Source of the DNA: a virus
DNA: 28,052 nt
IMG/VR virus record: IMGVR_UViG_3300013126_000188
Span: 1 to 28,052 of that record
Direction: 5' to 3' (one strand)
The notes under the pieces were generated by a model. It was not told the origin of the DNA. It did not search any database and saw nothing but the letters and a program-made list of their open reading frames with translations. Both the position numbers and the translations under genes were made by a program. Positions 721 through 26,170 of this stretch are shown in pieces. Position 1 is the first letter of the stretch, and every line of letters begins with the position of its first letter.

Positions 721-996
721 ATGAACCTAAAAACTGCAAAAGCATTAAGAAAAGATGCCAAAACTTTAGCTACTTTATCTGAAGTTACTTTAACGCGAGC
801 TCTAGTTGAAAACGAAGGTCGTCGTAAGTATCGTTTTGAACTATTGAAAGATATTGACGGTGGTCCAATTTTCGATAGTGAAACCGGTCGTCCGAAGTAT
901 AATGCTACATTTGTAGCTTATGGACAGATGACCAACGAACCAATGTCAGTTCGTGGTATCTATCGTTCAATGAAACGAAACTTTAGAAGTAACTAA
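721..996 (+). CDS. Small basic phage protein, unknown function
   Basis: The product has 91 residues and is rich in Lys and Arg at both ends (MNLKTAKALRKDAK at the start, RGIYRSMKRNFRSN at the end), with a central segment that reads like a short beta region. No signal peptide or membrane segment is visible. The pattern of a tyrosine-containing RGIYR motif near the C terminus looks like small conserved phage proteins, but I cannot name a function. The start is fixed by agaaggaaa about 8 bases upstream. The gene ends tail to tail with the minus-strand HNH gene, overlapping it by 4 bases. Confidence 0.75.
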   Translation: MNLKTAKALRKDAKTLATLSEVTLTRALVENEGRRKYRFELLKDIDGGPIFDSETGRPKYNATFVAYGQMTNEPMSVRGIYRSMKRNFRSN

Positions 997-1751
997 GAAT
1001 TAGCATACTTTCCCTGACGAGTTTCTCTCCTATAAATTATGCCTACTGCAGACTTTGTAAGAGAGTAACCTAACTCATCGAGCATATCTTTGATTTCTGG
1101 GAAAGTTTTGTTATATGTTTCTCGTTGGTCAATAACAAACTTCCTAAGTTCAGGTGGAAGTTTGTTTTGATTTTCTGCTCCTCTAGCTTTCCATTCACAA
1201 TTTTCTTTATTTTTTCCGCTTTGGAATAACCTATTACGTTCTCCTAATTCTCTAAGATGTGGATATTCTTCTTTGGTTCTTCCTGACAATTTTGCTGCCA
1301 TTGATGCCATGAATTCACAATTTTCTTTCGTAAGACCTTTACGTTTTTCAGATGCTGCTAATCGACCGGCGTCATTAGTTTTATTTCGCGATTTCATATC
1401 ATCACTTATTTTTCTTTTGAGCCATCCATAAATTTTATTTCCAACTCTCGCCATATTGCTATCATGGTTCATTCTTATAATTGCATTTGATAATCGCCAA
1501 TTATTAGGAAATATCTTTACCAATAATTGATGAGCTACAAAATGTTCTTCAGGTGTTAGAAGTGTCATGTTACTTTTATCAAAACTACCACCCATACATT
1601 TAGGAAGTATATGATGTGCTTCAGTATAGAAGTCTAAAGCTTCTTTTTTTGTTCCTCGTGATTGACCTCGTTCACATAACAATTTGTAATGTTTTAGGTA
1701 CTTTTGTTGATTGGGTGTAAGATTTGGGGTTTGATAAATACAATCAGTCAA
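993..1751 (-). CDS. HNH homing endonuclease with NUMOD-like repeats
   Basis: The 252-residue product carries an HNH nuclease core near residues 45-75: AHHILPKCMGG, an Asn-containing turn (KSNMTLLT) and PEEHFVAHQLL, the arrangement typical of T4-type free-standing HNH homing endonucleases. Residues 110-190 contain short repeats of the LSGRTKEE type, which resemble NUMOD3 DNA-binding modules, and the C terminus looks like a helix-turn-helix (about 205-245). The start is a TTG preceded by GGAG with 7-base spacing on the minus strand. A late promoter motif (1820-1827) and a 14-bp hairpin (1783-1816) lie upstream. The enzyme would nick or cut phage DNA and spread its own gene. A paralogue lies at 24127-24879. 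Confidence 0.85.
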   Translation of the reverse strand: MTDCIYQTPNLTPNQQKYLKHYKLLCERGQSRGTKKEALDFYTEAHHILPKCMGGSFDKSNMTLLTPEEHFVAHQLLVKIFPNNWRLSNAIIRMNHDSNMARVGNKIYGWLKRKISDDMKSRNKTNDAGRLAASEKRKGLTKENCEFMASMAAKLSGRTKEEYPHLRELGERNRLFQSGKNKENCEWKARGAENQNKLPPELRKFVIDQRETYNKTFPEIKDMLDELGYSLTKSAVGIIYRRETRQGKYANS

Positions 1752-1782
1752 GTTATATCTCCAGGAAGTATGATTTGATTAG

Positions 1783-1816
1783 AAGGAAAGCAACTAGTGA
1801 GATAGTTGCTTTCCTT
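1783..1816 (-). terminator. 14-bp perfect hairpin after the chaperone pair / 5' of the HNH gene
   Basis: Arms 1783-1796 and 1803-1816 are perfectly complementary with a 6-base loop. On the minus strand the hairpin follows the end of the small chaperone gene by 13 bases, so it may stop or process that transcript, although no long U run follows. It also lies in the leader of the HNH gene, partly upstream of the likely start of late transcripts. Confidence 0.5.
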
Positions 1817-1819
1817 TGT

Positions 1820-1829: not shown

Positions 1830-2054
1830 TTAGTAAACGGGATTGTGTTTCTTTGCTTCCTGCTCCAATCGTTTATTGATAAAGTCGGAAGCAATGTCTC
1901 GCTCACCCGCTGTCATCTGCAGTACTGTGTGATATGTCCATGCTCCTCTTGAGTACCATGAAAGTTCCAAACAACTCTGTATGATTGATTTTATTTCTGC
2001 TCCGAGCTGAGTAATTAGAGCTTGACTTCGCTCTAGTTCCCCTGAACGGAGCAT
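1830..2054 (-). CDS. Small second part of tail/baseplate chaperone pair (gp51-position; frameshift extension)
   Basis: This 74-residue frame begins at an ATG that overlaps the stop of the gp26-like gene (TAATG). No Shine-Dalgarno sequence precedes it; the upstream bases are a pyrimidine tract. It is exactly in the -1 frame of the gp26-like gene and is entered directly from the slippery heptamer at 2060-2066, so its main product is probably the C-terminal part of a 336-residue fusion; coupled restart at the ATG is the alternative. The sequence is mostly helical in look (SGELERSQALITQLGAE). In T4, gene 51 lies next to gene 26 and both act in baseplate hub assembly; T4 gp51 is much longer, so homology is not shown here. 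Confidence 0.8.
   Translation of the reverse strand: MLRSGELERSQALITQLGAEIKSIIQSCLELSWYSRGAWTYHTVLQMTAGERDIASDFINKRLEQEAKKHNPVY
1999..2052 (-). other. Nested hairpin downstream of the slippery site
   Basis: On the minus strand GCTCCG (2052-2047) pairs with CGGAGC (2004-1999), and inside it TAGAGC (2035-2030) pairs with GCTCTA (2021-2016). The outer stem starts 7 bases after the heptamer, inside the 5-9 base window usual for stimulators of -1 frameshifting. Confidence 0.5.
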
Positions 2055-2839
2055 TAAGAGAAAAAAGATATAGGATTGAGAGGCAGTTCTACATCAAATT
2101 TTTCACCGCAATCACGACATGTCAAAGTAGAAGTCAAGTCTAATCCCCATTCATTGATATCATCAAGATATCCTGCTATTCGTTCAACATGATTTGCCCC
2201 AGCAAATCTTATCCATTCACTTATCAAATCTTTATCTTCAATTCCGTCGATACTCTGAATAACACTCATTAGGTTCATGAAGATATTGTTTTGAATATCT
2301 TGAACCGATAGTTTATCCTTTCCTTCATTTGCTTGTAATACATCAATGATTTTGTTGTATCTTGCAGGTTGAAGTTTTACTACTTGTCCATTTTCTAACT
2401 TGACACTAAACTGTTTTTCAATAATAGTTGGGTCAAGATATCGCATATTCGATAATACTTGTTCTAAGTCGATTGTATAGATGTGTTGTTTGCCGTGTTC
2501 GCATCGATGATTTGCGGTAATATCATAGCTTGGTCCATATGTCACTAATCTCAAGAATAACATAATAGCATCAACATCTTTACCGAATAGTTCAGTAGGT
2601 TTATTGATACCTTGAATACAATTCGAAAAGACGGGGTCTAATGCTTTACCTGTGAATAACATATCAGGATTTTTGAGAACTACTTCATCAAAAGCATTCA
2701 TTGGCTGAATGTGCAATTCTCCAGCAGAAACAGAACTATCAAGTTCATCATTTGAATATAGAAGACCTCTTGATGGTAATTGAAGAACACGACCAGGAAG
2801 TTTTAGTTTTGCAAGAAGGGGATTATGTTCATTTATCAT
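2054..2839 (-). CDS. gp26: gp26-like baseplate hub / tail assembly chaperone
   Basis: The 261-residue product resembles the T4 gp26 family of baseplate hub assembly proteins. Visible signs are the N-terminal LPSRGLLY motif, the central HRCEHG segment and a C-terminal CRDCGEKFDVELPLNP zinc-ribbon-like end followed by SFF. T4 gp26 has 208 residues, so this version is longer. The gene lies head to head with the tape-measure-like gene and ends with a -1 frameshift signal into a small downstream frame. This layout (chaperone, frameshift extension, tape measure beside it) is the one used by tail assembly chaperones of the lambda G/GT type. A TATAAATA late promoter lies about 55 bases upstream. The product would act in the cytoplasm during tail assembly. 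Confidence 0.8.
   Translation of the reverse strand: MINEHNPLLAKLKLPGRVLQLPSRGLLYSNDELDSSVSAGELHIQPMNAFDEVVLKNPDMLFTGKALDPVFSNCIQGINKPTELFGKDVDAIMLFLRLVTYGPSYDITANHRCEHGKQHIYTIDLEQVLSNMRYLDPTIIEKQFSVKLENGQVVKLQPARYNKIIDVLQANEGKDKLSVQDIQNNIFMNLMSVIQSIDGIEDKDLISEWIRFAGANHVERIAGYLDDINEWGLDLTSTLTCRDCGEKFDVELPLNPISFFS
2060..2066 (-). promoter_or_regulatory. -1 ribosomal frameshift heptamer T TTT TTC
   Basis: In the frame of the gp26-like gene the codons read TCT TTT TTC TCT TAA. The heptamer T TTT TTC fits X XXY YYZ. A -1 slip leads to CTC TTA ATG, that is straight into the 74-residue frame, just before the zero-frame stop at 2056-2054. Confidence 0.75.
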
Positions 2840-2950: not shown

Positions 2951-5900
2951 ATGTCTGGTTCTAGTTCTAATACACCATCTGACGCGATATTACGTCAACG
3001 AACACTTGATACTCTCAATAGGATAGAAAGTGCGTTACGAAATGGTAGTAACATGTCAGCCAGCTCTGGTGATAGAGGTAGCACTCAACGAGGTAGTGGT
3101 GCCGGAAGTGGAACTAACAATACTGCTACTACTCAAAATGATGCTCAACAAGCACGTCGTGATGCTCTTCAAAATCGCTCAATTCAAGAGTTGGAAGATA
3201 CTCTTTCGAACCTGATAACTTCTATTGAGAGTCTAAAGAATAGTGTTGAAGGTGGGGAACAAGCGTTATCAGATGACCAAAAGCAATTGCTTCAACAACA
3301 ACGAGAAGAAGCTCAAGCAGCTCGTGAAATCATTCTTGAAGCTAAACGTGGAGAGTTAGAACAGTCTGAAATTGTTCAAAATAGTTCAAGAAACTTAGGT
3401 CGTGCTTTAGCTGGTCTGACTGAACCATTGCGTACAAGTTGGAATGCATTTGAAGATTACAACTTGAGTATGAACCGTTCAATTTCGGCTCAATCATCAA
3501 TGTTAGCCGGAATGGTTGAGGGTGCTAATCTTCAAAATACTGCTTATGATAAGTATATCACAAAGTTACTAGACGCAAGTGAAACTTTGTCAAGTTTTAC
3601 AAATCTAGGACGAGAACTCAATTCGTCTCGTGAATTATCAGAAGCAATTCAGGAGCTCACCGAAGATGGTAAAGTTTTTGAAGCTCTATTACGAGAACAC
3701 GGCGACCAAACAGCAGAATACATTGAAACTCTGTATCAATTACGAGAGGCTGGTAGTGAGTTAGCGGAACATCAGCAAGAAGTTCTTAGAGTTGCTGTGA
3801 AAAATCGTATGATAGACGAACATGGCCGTGCCCAAAATGCTGAAGCTATGCGAGAACATACTAACCAAATCAAAGCAGACATGATACGAATGCAAGAGAT
3901 TGCAGTTCAACATGTTGCTATTGCCAAACTTACGCAATCTTTCCATGACAGGTTTGGCAAATACACTAGTGCGTTGTTTGGAGATAAGGGACCGTTTGGT
4001 ATGATTATCTTAGGTTTGACCATATTAGGTAATAGCATCACTAAAGTATATGACCAGTTTGTAAAGGCAGCTGACATTGGTATGTTGGGTTCTAGCCAGC
4101 TGCTTGGTAGCTTTGCACGTCTTCAACAAACATCTGTTAAGTTAGGTATAAGTTTTGACGAAACTGCAAAGATCTTTCAAGAAAACCGTCGAATGGCCTA
4201 TAGTGTAGGAGACAATGTAGGAGATTTTGCCGATGCTTTAGATGAAGGTCAGAAAAGTCTAATCCTGTTAGGTATGGGCAATGAAGAAGCAGCCAAGTCT
4301 GCAGTCGATTTTGCTAAGAACGCTACTAAAGCAGGTATCGACATTACAAGTAACGATAAAGTCAAGAAAGCAATGAAAGCTCAAACTGAAGCATATGGTC
4401 GATTGAAAGTATTGACCGGTGCTTCTGCATCTGAGTTCAAAGCTTTGAATGACGAACTGTTTGATGCTCAAGCAATTCAGCAACAAATGAACGGTCTAAG
4501 TCAGGATGAACGAACAATAAGAATGGAAGCAATGTTCAAACTACGTGAAGACTTTGTCAAGTTGGGTCTTAGTGCTCAATCAGCTAATAAAGCTCTTGTA
4601 TCAATTCAAGACTTAGGTAAAGAAAAGTTAGCAGACCGATTTACTCAAGCAGCAAAGTTTCAACAGTTAGCAGGTGTTCTTGGTATGAAGAATGCAGTTC
4701 AACTTGGTCAAATAGTTCGTAAGGGTGACAGAGCAACAGTTGATGAGAAGGAGATGCTAATGAAGTCAGCTGTTGAAATGCAGAAACGAGCAGATGAAAG
4801 AAGACGTGGAAGTTATGGTGATGAAAACTTGATACAAGCTCTTGAAGGTGGATTGACTGGACCGTTAGCTGCATTGATGGACCAAGGTCGAGAAGCATCT
4901 AAAACGACTGATGCTTTAGGTAAGTTTGTTCAGAGTACATTTGGTAAGCAAACAGTTGATGGTGATATTAAGATACCACCTTGGGCCGCAACATTGATTG
5001 ACATCGGCCATAGCATTTCAACTGTGTTAAGTAACCCGATTGTCCAAGCATTGGGCGGTATAGGTTTAGCTGTATGGGGATGGTTGAAATTTGCAAAACC
5101 TTTAGGCAATACCATTACAAGTATGAGAGATAGTCTACTTGATATTGTTAGAAATACCGCCGCCAATGATCAAACAACTGCACAAGGAAGAGCTGCAAGT
5201 AGAAGACGAGACGAAACTCAACGTAGAAGAAGAGGAGTAAGAAACCCGTCAGGAAATCGTGCAAGCCCTGCACCTAATGGTTCTTCAAGATTAGGTGGAA
5301 GATGGGGAAGAATTGGAATGGGTGGGGCAGGTGGAGTACTTGCGGGATTGGCAACGGATGCTATCATGGACCATCAAACTGATCCTAATACTGGCGAAAT
5401 GTCAACCGGTGGTAAATGGGCTTCAGTGCTCGGAAGTGCTCTTTCAGGTGCTTCTTTAGGAATGATGACCGGAAACCCATTGGGTATAGCAGCCGGGGCA
5501 GTTGGTGGTGGTCTTCTTGGAGCGTGGAATGCATTTAGAGACAGTTCTTCATCAGGTGCTTCATCATCTTCAGGTGTAGCAAGTGCTCATCCATCATCTG
5601 GAACTAGTCCTTCGTCAATTTATAGCTCTTATCCGTCTGGAACTAATCCTCCGTCAATCTATAGTCCTCAACCGAGTGCAACTACATCATCTAAAGTAAC
5701 TCCTATTGGAAGTTCTACATCCGGGACATCTAGTTCTAGTAGTTCAAATGAAGCGGATGCTCCAGTCATTAGACTATCAAAAGACACAATCACTAAACTT
5801 GGAAACTACTTGACTACTTTGAACGACACACAAACTAAGTCACTAAATATAGAACAAGACCAGCTTGATATGCTTGCTGCATTAGTCACAGCAAGTGATG

Positions 5901-5989
5901 AAGCATATAAGAACGCTAAGTCTCTCAAACCGATACCAGGTCATTCGTCCTTGTTTGGTAGAGGTGGTCGTTATGAATACATCAACTAA
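2951..5989 (+). CDS. Tape-measure-like tail protein
   Basis: The 1012-residue product has the make-up of a tail tape measure protein. Residues 1-90 are Ser/Asn/Gln-rich, residues about 70-330 are long helical coiled-coil sequence, and hydrophobic segments follow near 350 (GMIILGLTILGNSI), near 695 (ALGGIGLAVWGWL) and near 790-865, where Gly/Ala-rich stretches could insert in a membrane. A Ser/Pro/Gly-rich linker (about 870-935) precedes a short C-terminal domain. It is longer than T4 gp29 (590 residues); at the usual 1.5 angstrom per residue it would suit a tail of roughly 150 nm. It starts 40 bases after a late promoter, with aaaagagaatactt before the ATG, faces the chaperone pair and is followed by the portal gene after 20 bases. 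The family call rests on architecture and neighbours, not on a motif. Confidence 0.75.
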   Translation: MSGSSSNTPSDAILRQRTLDTLNRIESALRNGSNMSASSGDRGSTQRGSGAGSGTNNTATTQNDAQQARRDALQNRSIQELEDTLSNLITSIESLKNSVEGGEQALSDDQKQLLQQQREEAQAAREIILEAKRGELEQSEIVQNSSRNLGRALAGLTEPLRTSWNAFEDYNLSMNRSISAQSSMLAGMVEGANLQNTAYDKYITKLLDASETLSSFTNLGRELNSSRELSEAIQELTEDGKVFEALLREHGDQTAEYIETLYQLREAGSELAEHQQEVLRVAVKNRMIDEHGRAQNAEAMREHTNQIKADMIRMQEIAVQHVAIAKLTQSFHDRFGKYTSALFGDKGPFGMIILGLTILGNSITKVYDQFVKAADIGMLGSSQLLGSFARLQQTSVKLGISFDETAKIFQENRRMAYSVGDNVGDFADALDEGQKSLILLGMGNEEAAKSAVDFAKNATKAGIDITSNDKVKKAMKAQTEAYGRLKVLTGASASEFKALNDELFDAQAIQQQMNGLSQDERTIRMEAMFKLREDFVKLGLSAQSANKALVSIQDLGKEKLADRFTQAAKFQQLAGVLGMKNAVQLGQIVRKGDRATVDEKEMLMKSAVEMQKRADERRRGSYGDENLIQALEGGLTGPLAALMDQGREASKTTDALGKFVQSTFGKQTVDGDIKIPPWAATLIDIGHSISTVLSNPIVQALGGIGLAVWGWLKFAKPLGNTITSMRDSLLDIVRNTAANDQTTAQGRAASRRRDETQRRRRGVRNPSGNRASPAPNGSSRLGGRWGRIGMGGAGGVLAGLATDAIMDHQTDPNTGEMSTGGKWASVLGSALSGASLGMMTGNPLGIAAGAVGGGLLGAWNAFRDSSSSGASSSSGVASAHPSSGTSPSSIYSSYPSGTNPPSIYSPQPSATTSSKVTPIGSSTSGTSSSSSSNEADAPVIRLSKDTITKLGNYLTTLNDTQTKSLNIEQDQLDMLAALVTASDEAYKNAKSLKPIPGHSSLFGRGGRYEYIN

Positions 5990-14108: not shown

Positions 14109-15194
14109 ATGACAAAAAAGTACAGTTCTATCATAAAGTTTGCTCCTGAACATGAACCAAGACCTTTGCCTTTCGTAATTTCTGATAAAGACTTTGGTCA
14201 AGAACGACCTGATACCCATTCTAATATATGGGAAGATGTTTCACAATTGTTATCTGATAATGGTGTAAAGTTTGAACGAATTATCAATGATGAAACTGGA
14301 GATAAAGATTATCTGAAAGTACTTCCTGAAGGAAAACAAGAAGTTCATATTTACCCACTTCCTCGTGCCTATCCATACCGTCAAGGTTATTACTCTGATA
14401 AAGGTGGAAATTTTGATAAGAGATACTTTTGCGACACTAGTATTGAAAATGAAAAGAAAAACATTAGAACCATTTGGATAAAACCTTGGGAGTGGGTAAA
14501 AGGTTCAAGAATGCGAAATGTTTTGAGTTCTATTATTTTGAATGCATGTGGTATAACGGGTATCAATTTCAATGCAAGGAATACTGAAGTAAGAGAAGTG
14601 CCATCTGACGAGCTAAGACCTTTCTTAGAGAAGAACAGTTTTTATGGATATCGAGCCGCTTCACTAAGTTTAGGTTTATATTTGACTAAAGAATGGGATG
14701 GGTATCCTGTTGGAACACTTTTGATGGTATACACAGTTGGCTACCCATTTTTTGGAGCTAAGAATGGTAAATATGATGCTGAAATCATTCGAGCAGCAAC
14801 TTTGATTGGAACTAATGTTAGAGGAGGTGCTTCAAAGTTATTCAAACATTTTGTTGACAACTATCCATACCTAACAGTAGGAAAAGGAACACCTAAAGAA
14901 AGAAAAGTGGAATGGAGTAAGTGTGCTTATTATTGCGAATTTGATCACACGAACGGCAATTCATTGCCTCACCTAGGCTTTGACTTCATTGAATACTCTG
15001 GACCTGGTTTTGTCAATGTTGATATGGAAACGGGTGAATGGTCGCACCGCCAGCCGATGAAACATAAAGAAGTCATGCAGAAGATAAAAGATGGAACAAT
15101 GTACTCTGTCTTCAATGCAGGTGTCAAAACATTCATTTATTACAAGAACAAAGAAAATATCATAAAAGATAACTCAGACTTTACTCACGAATAA
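14109..15194 (+). CDS. Hef-like homing endonuclease accessory / GNAT-like domain protein
   Basis: The 361-residue product matches, from about residue 150 on, the C-terminal domain I know from phage Hef-type endonucleases and related stand-alone proteins. Matching stretches are NARNTEVREVPSDE then FLEKNSFYGYRAASLSLGLY, the strand-rich VGTLLMVYTVGYPF, EIIRAATLIGTNVRGGASKL and FKHFVDNYPY, and the late LGFDFIEYSGPGF. The fold reads like a GNAT-type acyltransferase, but activity is unproven. The first 150 residues look different and contain YPLPRAYPYRQGYYSDK; no nuclease motif is obvious. It follows two homing endonuclease genes and has its own promoter. A hairpin (15175-15183 with 15192-15200) overlaps the end of the gene. 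Confidence 0.7.
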   Translation: MTKKYSSIIKFAPEHEPRPLPFVISDKDFGQERPDTHSNIWEDVSQLLSDNGVKFERIINDETGDKDYLKVLPEGKQEVHIYPLPRAYPYRQGYYSDKGGNFDKRYFCDTSIENEKKNIRTIWIKPWEWVKGSRMRNVLSSIILNACGITGINFNARNTEVREVPSDELRPFLEKNSFYGYRAASLSLGLYLTKEWDGYPVGTLLMVYTVGYPFFGAKNGKYDAEIIRAATLIGTNVRGGASKLFKHFVDNYPYLTVGKGTPKERKVEWSKCAYYCEFDHTNGNSLPHLGFDFIEYSGPGFVNVDMETGEWSHRQPMKHKEVMQKIKDGTMYSVFNAGVKTFIYYKNKENIIKDNSDFTHE

Positions 15195-25845: not shown

Positions 25846-26049
25846 ATGAAACTTTATGTGAGATGGTTACTTATCGGAATGCTACTTATGGTACTTATAG
25901 TACCAATGTTGAAGTATGCCGATAAATCTCGCCAAACATCTGAAAATGTGATACAATGTATTGGTTCAGTAACTTTCTCACAAGACTTTATTGAAGCCTG
26001 GTGGCCATATGAAAGTGAAAATCTTGAACGTATAAGATGTAATGATTGA
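25846..26049 (+). CDS. Small membrane-anchored protein
   Basis: The 67-residue product starts with a hydrophobic anchor (WLLIGMLLMVLIVPML, residues 6-21), followed by a short soluble part with two Cys (VIQCIGS, RIRCND) that might form a disulfide outside the cytoplasm. It starts three bases after the previous membrane gene. Its stop and last codon lie inside the acceptor sequence of the composite tRNA-like locus. Confidence 0.65.
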   Translation: MKLYVRWLLIGMLLMVLIVPMLKYADKSRQTSENVIQCIGSVTFSQDFIEAWWPYESENLERIRCND

Positions 26050-26170
26050 ATAGCTTAATAGGCAAAGTGCTCCACCTTGGGTAGAGGATGGGTTCGATTC
26101 CCATCATATAAGTGGACGACTCGTAAATCCGCATGGAGAGATGAAGGTTCGAACCCTTCTTCAATCATCC
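26044..26170 (+). tRNA. Composite tRNA-like locus with two T arms
   Basis: A perfect 7-bp acceptor, GATTGAA (26044-26050) with TTCAATC (26160-26166), encloses 127 bases instead of about 75-85. After the 5' acceptor come TA and a D-arm-like GCTTAATAGGCAAAGT. Then follow a segment with a Pro-like loop CTTGGGT and a complete T arm (GATGGG TTCGATT CCCATC), and next a second anticodon-like arm (GTGGA/TCCGC, loop with extra bases) and a second T arm (GAAGG TTCGAAC CCTTC). It reads like the 5' part of one tRNA and the 3' part of another, or a long-variable-arm tRNA with a 40-50 base insertion. No 3' CCA is encoded. Confidence 0.45.

Follow-up and report, generated by a model that had tools for sequence, protein, structure and literature searches.

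A single T4-type tail assembly chaperone gene on the minus strand of the viral record IMGVR_UViG_3300013126_000188 very probably gives rise to two protein forms through -1 ribosomal frameshifting, as judged from its sequence and from those of its relatives. The stretch analysed, positions 1 to 28,052 of that record (28,052 nt, hereafter the window), contains head and tail genes of T4-like type, with family matches to portal, prohead protease and major capsid. We propose that most ribosomes would terminate at 2054 to yield a 261-residue short form (gp26, G-like), and that a fraction would pause on T TTT TTC before a stem-loop and slip one base back, both Phe-tRNAs re-pairing as TTT TTT. The slipped ribosomes would then read a gp51-type extension, resulting in a 336-residue long form (GT-like). 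In tail assembly the tape measure protein would carry a coat of both forms, and the extension would recruit the tail tube. The inferred parts of this scheme are slippage and how efficient it is, binding of the tape measure, and which gene encodes the latter. The features concerned are the following.

2054..2839, minus strand: gp26-like short form of the putative tail assembly chaperone, 261 aa, 0 frame (Pfam and PHROG matches; AlphaFold model)
2060..2066, minus strand: slippery heptamer T_TTT_TTC (sequence; same place in relatives)
2054..2056, minus strand: 0-frame TAA stop that ends the short form and shares bases with the small ORF's ATG, as TAATG (sequence)
1830..2060, minus strand: -1 frame extension, 76 aa plus stop, putative gp51-type C-terminal segment of the long form (open frame, dN/dS, shared motif)
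1830-2054, minus strand: small ORF alone, 74 aa, with its start at the overlapping TAATG (sequence)
1998..2053, minus strand: stem-loop downstream of the heptamer (folding z scores; outer stem unchanged in an 89%-identical relative)
1782..1817, no strand assigned: terminator-like 15-bp hairpin just past the end of the -1 frame (consensus match only; 1 found, 0.8 expected)
2951..5989, plus strand: candidate tape measure gene, 1012 aa, head-to-head with the chaperone gene (position, orientation, composition)

Two homing/HNH endonuclease genes also lie in the window (993-1751, minus strand; 14109-15194, plus strand), the former starting about 80 bases past the end of the chaperone's -1 frame. Further along, 26044-26167 (plus strand) is a tRNA by Rfam (51.9 bits) whose anticodon-stem halves stand about 58 nt apart; within this insert lies another T-arm-like sequence, GGTTCGATTCCC, which gives the locus the look of two nested or fused tRNAs. 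ARAGORN made no call for this tRNA, and no DNA similar to it was found in phages.

A slippery heptamer followed by a stem-loop

The minus-strand junction reads ...CCT ATA TCT TTT TTC TCT TAA TGC, with TCT TTT TTC TCT TAA forming the end of the gp26-like gene. T_TTT_TTC (2066-2060) fits the X_XXY_YYZ register and the 0-frame TAA (2056-2054) follows one codon later; in the -1 frame, reading from the heptamer proceeds as CTC TTA ATG ... and stays open until the stop at 1832-1830. The window thereby shows what characterises a programmed -1 frameshift, an in-frame X_XXY_YYZ heptamer with a -1 frame open beyond the stop, and the fusion would comprise 260+2+74 = 336 aa. An earlier sequence-only reading of the window had pointed out this heptamer at the end of the gp26-like gene, the stop-free 336-residue fusion via CTC TTA ATG and the lack of a Shine-Dalgarno site in front of the small frame. 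The first two were confirmed on the minus strand, and we likewise found no Shine-Dalgarno sequence before the ATG of the small ORF. Among the 5522 codons of the window's other CDSs, in-frame T_TTT_TTN occurs twice, both times as TTTTTTA and both times outside the last codons of the gene. Considered apart from its conservation the heptamer is suggestive; since relatives conserve its site, its frame and the structure, the signal lies far beyond chance, and for this reason a chance heptamer is ruled out.

The stem-loop consists of a 7-bp outer stem (2053-2047 paired with 2004-1998), a middle stem (2042-2040 with 2011-2009) and an inner stem (2035-2030 with 2021-2016), with a minimum free energy of -24.9 kcal/mol and z = -3.7 over 82 nt or -4.8 over 65 nt. 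Its 6-nt spacer from the heptamer falls within the 5-9 nt at which a stimulatory structure is looked for, making the stem-loop a candidate stimulator. Both stems named in the sequence-only reading are present, the outer one having 7 bp, not 6, and the spacer 6 nt, not seven. Over the 65 nt past the heptamer the mean z is -1.9 in 24 jumbo lineages and -2.3 in 11 marine lineages; nine control windows gave z from -0.9 to +0.4, so that unusually strong folding is seen only just after the heptamer. Between the window and L011, a relative that is 89% identical with dS above 1, the outer stem is identical and the inner pairs are rearranged into another stable form; these two distinct sequences constitute the window's own lineage and set the scope for covariation within it.

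Covariation is seen in marine loci with T_TTT_TTA, where a hairpin begins 5 nt past the heptamer and its pairs co-vary at synonymous sites. One such pair joins the third bases of a Leu codon and an Asp/Glu codon and is AU in 11, CG in 10, GC in 2 and UA in 2 of 36. Two-sided changes in the hairpin amount to 24 cells versus 12.1 in shuffles, counts which are inflated by sequence kinship, and slid controls are far lower than the hairpin counts. Related marine T_TTT_TTC loci lack the hairpin and show no such covariation (0/17). Loci with the compact co-varying hairpin, located just after the heptamer, are among L143-L283 (e.g. L204, L207 and L252). Stimulator function could be tested on the co-varying hairpins of the marine T_TTT_TTA lineage.

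The chaperone family and the neighbouring gene

The short form matches Pfam PF12322 (T4_baseplate; E=1.9e-10, 41.2 bits against a cut-off of 24.5) and phrog_150 (E=8.5e-10), the two families by which T4-type tail assembly chaperones are recognised. These two families are also matched by T4 gp26 and by T4 gp51, which show weak mutual similarity, gp51 being made up of a gp26-like part and a C-terminal extension. The C-terminus of T4 gp51 and the -1 extension of cyanophage S-CAM8 both match phrog_634 ('baseplate hub assembly catalyst'). In the window, the phrog_150 match of the fusion extends 26 residues beyond the junction, and the extension is tied to gp51 by a short motif (jumbo versus cyanophage extension, E=0.009). 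Because the families are common to all, gp51 equals the short form plus an extension and the phrog_634 matches agree, the short product would be the equivalent of gp26 and the frameshift product that of gp51, with two divergent genes in T4 and one in these phages. The small frame appears to be equivalent to the cyanophage 'gp51' (phrog_634) and, in T4, to the C-terminal extension that gp51 carries. The sequence-only reading, which spoke of a T4-like gp26/gp51 pair, was right about the family; the small frame would be the gp51 extension only, and the fusion gp51. The small ORF alone was rejected as a homologue of T4 gp51, which equates to the whole fusion.

With the short form modelled by AlphaFold (pLDDT 77.6), the top VIA-align row in the PDB is the HK97 tail assembly chaperone 2ob9_B, a weak match (Z 4.9, 84 residues) that, taken alone, says little and fits the chaperone reading. 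A Foldseek search of the model against the PDB gave nothing significant and sequence searches of the PDB found no relatives; in BFVD the model strongly matches models of T4-like baseplate hub proteins.

The 1012-aa gene head-to-head with the chaperone occupies the place and orientation of tape-measure-like virion proteins in jumbo relatives. Its counterpart in BF matches tape measure profiles (E about 1e-6), the one in RaK2 bears a tape-measure note, and the protein itself is Cys-free and rich in Gly, Ala and Ser. When it was searched for tape-measure homology there was no significant match. The sequence-only reading had taken this gene for the tape measure: position and composition fit and no tape-measure homologue is detectable, so that the assignment is plausible and, by analogy with the relatives, probable.

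Conservation, selection and rival explanations

Relatives of the gp26-like protein were gathered by tblastn and IMG/VR scans, the profile scans being based on sub-alignments (a profile from alignment A5 matched no viral contigs). They comprise jumbo T4-like phages (RAS14, XacN1, Phosso, PA5oct, XaC1, Atu_ph07, BF, SCTP-2, 121Q, RaK2 and Vibrio 2.275) as well as cyanophages and others; clustering at 80% identity, with locus L095 (broken gp26) left out, gave 59 non-redundant relatives. The jumbo relatives, at 22-29% protein identity to the window's gp26-like protein, encode the terminal Phe-Phe as T_TTT_TTC or T_TTT_TTT and keep the -1 frame open for 70-80 codons. In line with the alignment that the sequence-only reading had called for, heptamer, position and frame are kept in 53/59, with T_TTT_TTN at the same place and the -1 frame open for 52-80 codons (48 TTTTTTC, 2 TTTTTTT, 2 TTTTTTA and 1 TTTTTTG). 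Two added scans brought in further marine loci, with T_TTT_TTN in 136/136 scorable and the -1 frame open for at least 45 codons in all but three; having come via cyanophage-type queries, these 136 widen the marine sample and leave the jumbo sample as it was. Heptamer and frame are thus evolutionarily conserved, as expected of a -1 frameshift site.

It is the nucleotides that are held. Across the heptamer lineages the first Phe is always TTT and the codon before the pair is of nine kinds (AGT, TCT, GCT, CAT, GAT, AAT, TAT, GGT and CGT), always with T last, in a tally whose lineages were selected as heptamer carriers, the fair figure being 53/59. Other Phe-Phe pairs within the same genes take the form T_TTT_TTY in only 3/38. 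The window and L011 encode the Ser before the pair by different codons, TCT and AGT, both ending in T. Many marine loci have replaced the second Phe by Leu (TTA or TTG) and still carry T_TTT_TTA/G, which argues that nucleotides and not amino acids are retained. Beyond the junction, purifying selection acts on the -1 frame: between the window and L011 its dN/dS is 0.049 (dS 1.1), with 1.3 and 6.5 for the other two frames.

These data bear on three other explanations. The junction of the frames falls exactly on a homopolymer run, a common error site, as it would if one continuous gene had been split by an indel through sequencing error or decay. The same frame relation recurs in independent contigs and in cultured phage genomes from many laboratories, and the -1 frame is under purifying selection; the independent relatives refute this explanation, to which we assign practically no probability.

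Alternatively, two separate proteins could be made, the 74-aa ORF being translated by termination-reinitiation at TAATG and the heptamer being incidental. The window does have this overlap with the small ORF's own ATG, Cygsa01 shows the same TAATG overlap without the heptamer, and annotators generally give the small gene its own entry. Most relatives, however, lack an ATG close to the junction: many of the jumbo ones come to their first ATG only 12-56 codons into the extension, and that of PA5oct contains zero ATG, GTG or TTG. With the start codon absent or so far inside, the extension could hardly be made in these phages other than by frameshifting. The absent Shine-Dalgarno site, the maintenance of the heptamer at both synonymous and amino-acid-changing sites and the natural fusion of the two parts in T4 gp51 also speak against separate proteins, which we consider very unlikely. 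Somewhat less improbable, yet still unlikely, is that the window's lineage makes some reinitiated 74-aa protein in addition to the frameshift fusion: an ATG stands 1-2 codons past the junction in the window, L011 and a few jumbo relatives, but the ATG is not conserved between lineages and the heptamer is. The -1 frameshift and G/GT-type chaperone reading, first put forward from the sequence alone, is supported by the conserved signal, by the selection that acts on the -1 frame and by the structure.

The case that had been named as speaking against frameshifting, loss of the heptamer with both frames kept, does occur, mainly together with a +1/-2 shifted frame or the TAATG overlap. Among the 59 relatives there are six exceptions (Cygsa01, LIS04, Mel-JY01, L136, L008 and S-SCSM1). 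Cygsa01 (L022, 2800-2815) has lost the heptamer (SIFT, stop) and kept the TAATG overlap, and in its lineage the downstream gene may be reinitiated. In LIS04 (L023), Mel-JY01 (L024), L136 and L008 the gp51-type extension is in the +1/-2 frame, not the -1; in Mel-JY01 and L136, the end of gp26 has a run of seven T and then GG, which could serve as a +1 or -2 slip site. S-SCSM1 (L020, ~3180-3230), whose small downstream gene is annotated 'baseplate hub assembly catalyst', keeps the heptamer, with the -1 frame blocked after 4 codons and the gp51-like frame in +1/-2, reflecting either an indel or loss of frameshifting.

Known systems and evolution

Xu, Hendrix and Duda reportedly described lambda gpG/gpGT and the wider frameshifted TAC family in 2004. 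The lambda heptamer is G_GGA_AAG whereas that of the window is T_TTT_TTC, and the window's candidate tape measure gene lies head-to-head and not downstream. Closer in kind are the cyanophage gp26 and small gp51 (Kyanoviridae, e.g. S-CAM8), which share the T_TTT_TTC heptamer and the -1 extension; their proteins are shorter (236 + ~62 aa), and many cyanophage-type lineages differ from the window in combining T_TTT_TTA with a compact hairpin.

Tail assembly chaperones of T4-like phages (gp26/gp51) were treated by Vladimirov, Gautam and Davidson (2022, Virology 566:9-15), as cited in PRFect (PMC10885494) and the Adele paper (PMC12846349). According to the citing passages of these two papers, the TAC-N genes of T4-like phages are known to contain poly-T slippery sequences, and in some of these phages short and long gene copies replace frameshifting. 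The window's genes belong to the same family, with a gp26-like short form, a gp51-like long form and a poly-T -1 signal of the cited type; T4 differs in having two divergent paralogous genes without heptamer or frameshift, as opposed to one gene with T_TTT_TTC and a stem-loop. As far as these citations go, the idea of a frameshifted chaperone for T4-like phages as a group is not new, and since such chaperones and poly-T signals are already cited, the window represents a well-supported further case of a known system. In a limited literature search we found no description of the breadth among jumbo phages, the downstream structure, the co-varying marine hairpin or the frame-changed lineages.

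We see about an even chance that -1 frameshifting is ancestral for gp26/gp51 across T4-like phages, that T4 and its nearest kin duplicated the gene, that a few lineages moved the extension to +1/-2, and that heptamer and hairpin co-evolve, T_TTT_TTA keeping the co-varying hairpin that T_TTT_TTC of the same group goes without. An essential T4-like tail gene pair would usually be one recoded gene, which current annotation renders as a 'baseplate hub' gene and an orphan small ORF. The natural series of frameshift, duplication and +1/-2 variants could be used to measure why the ratio of short to long form matters.
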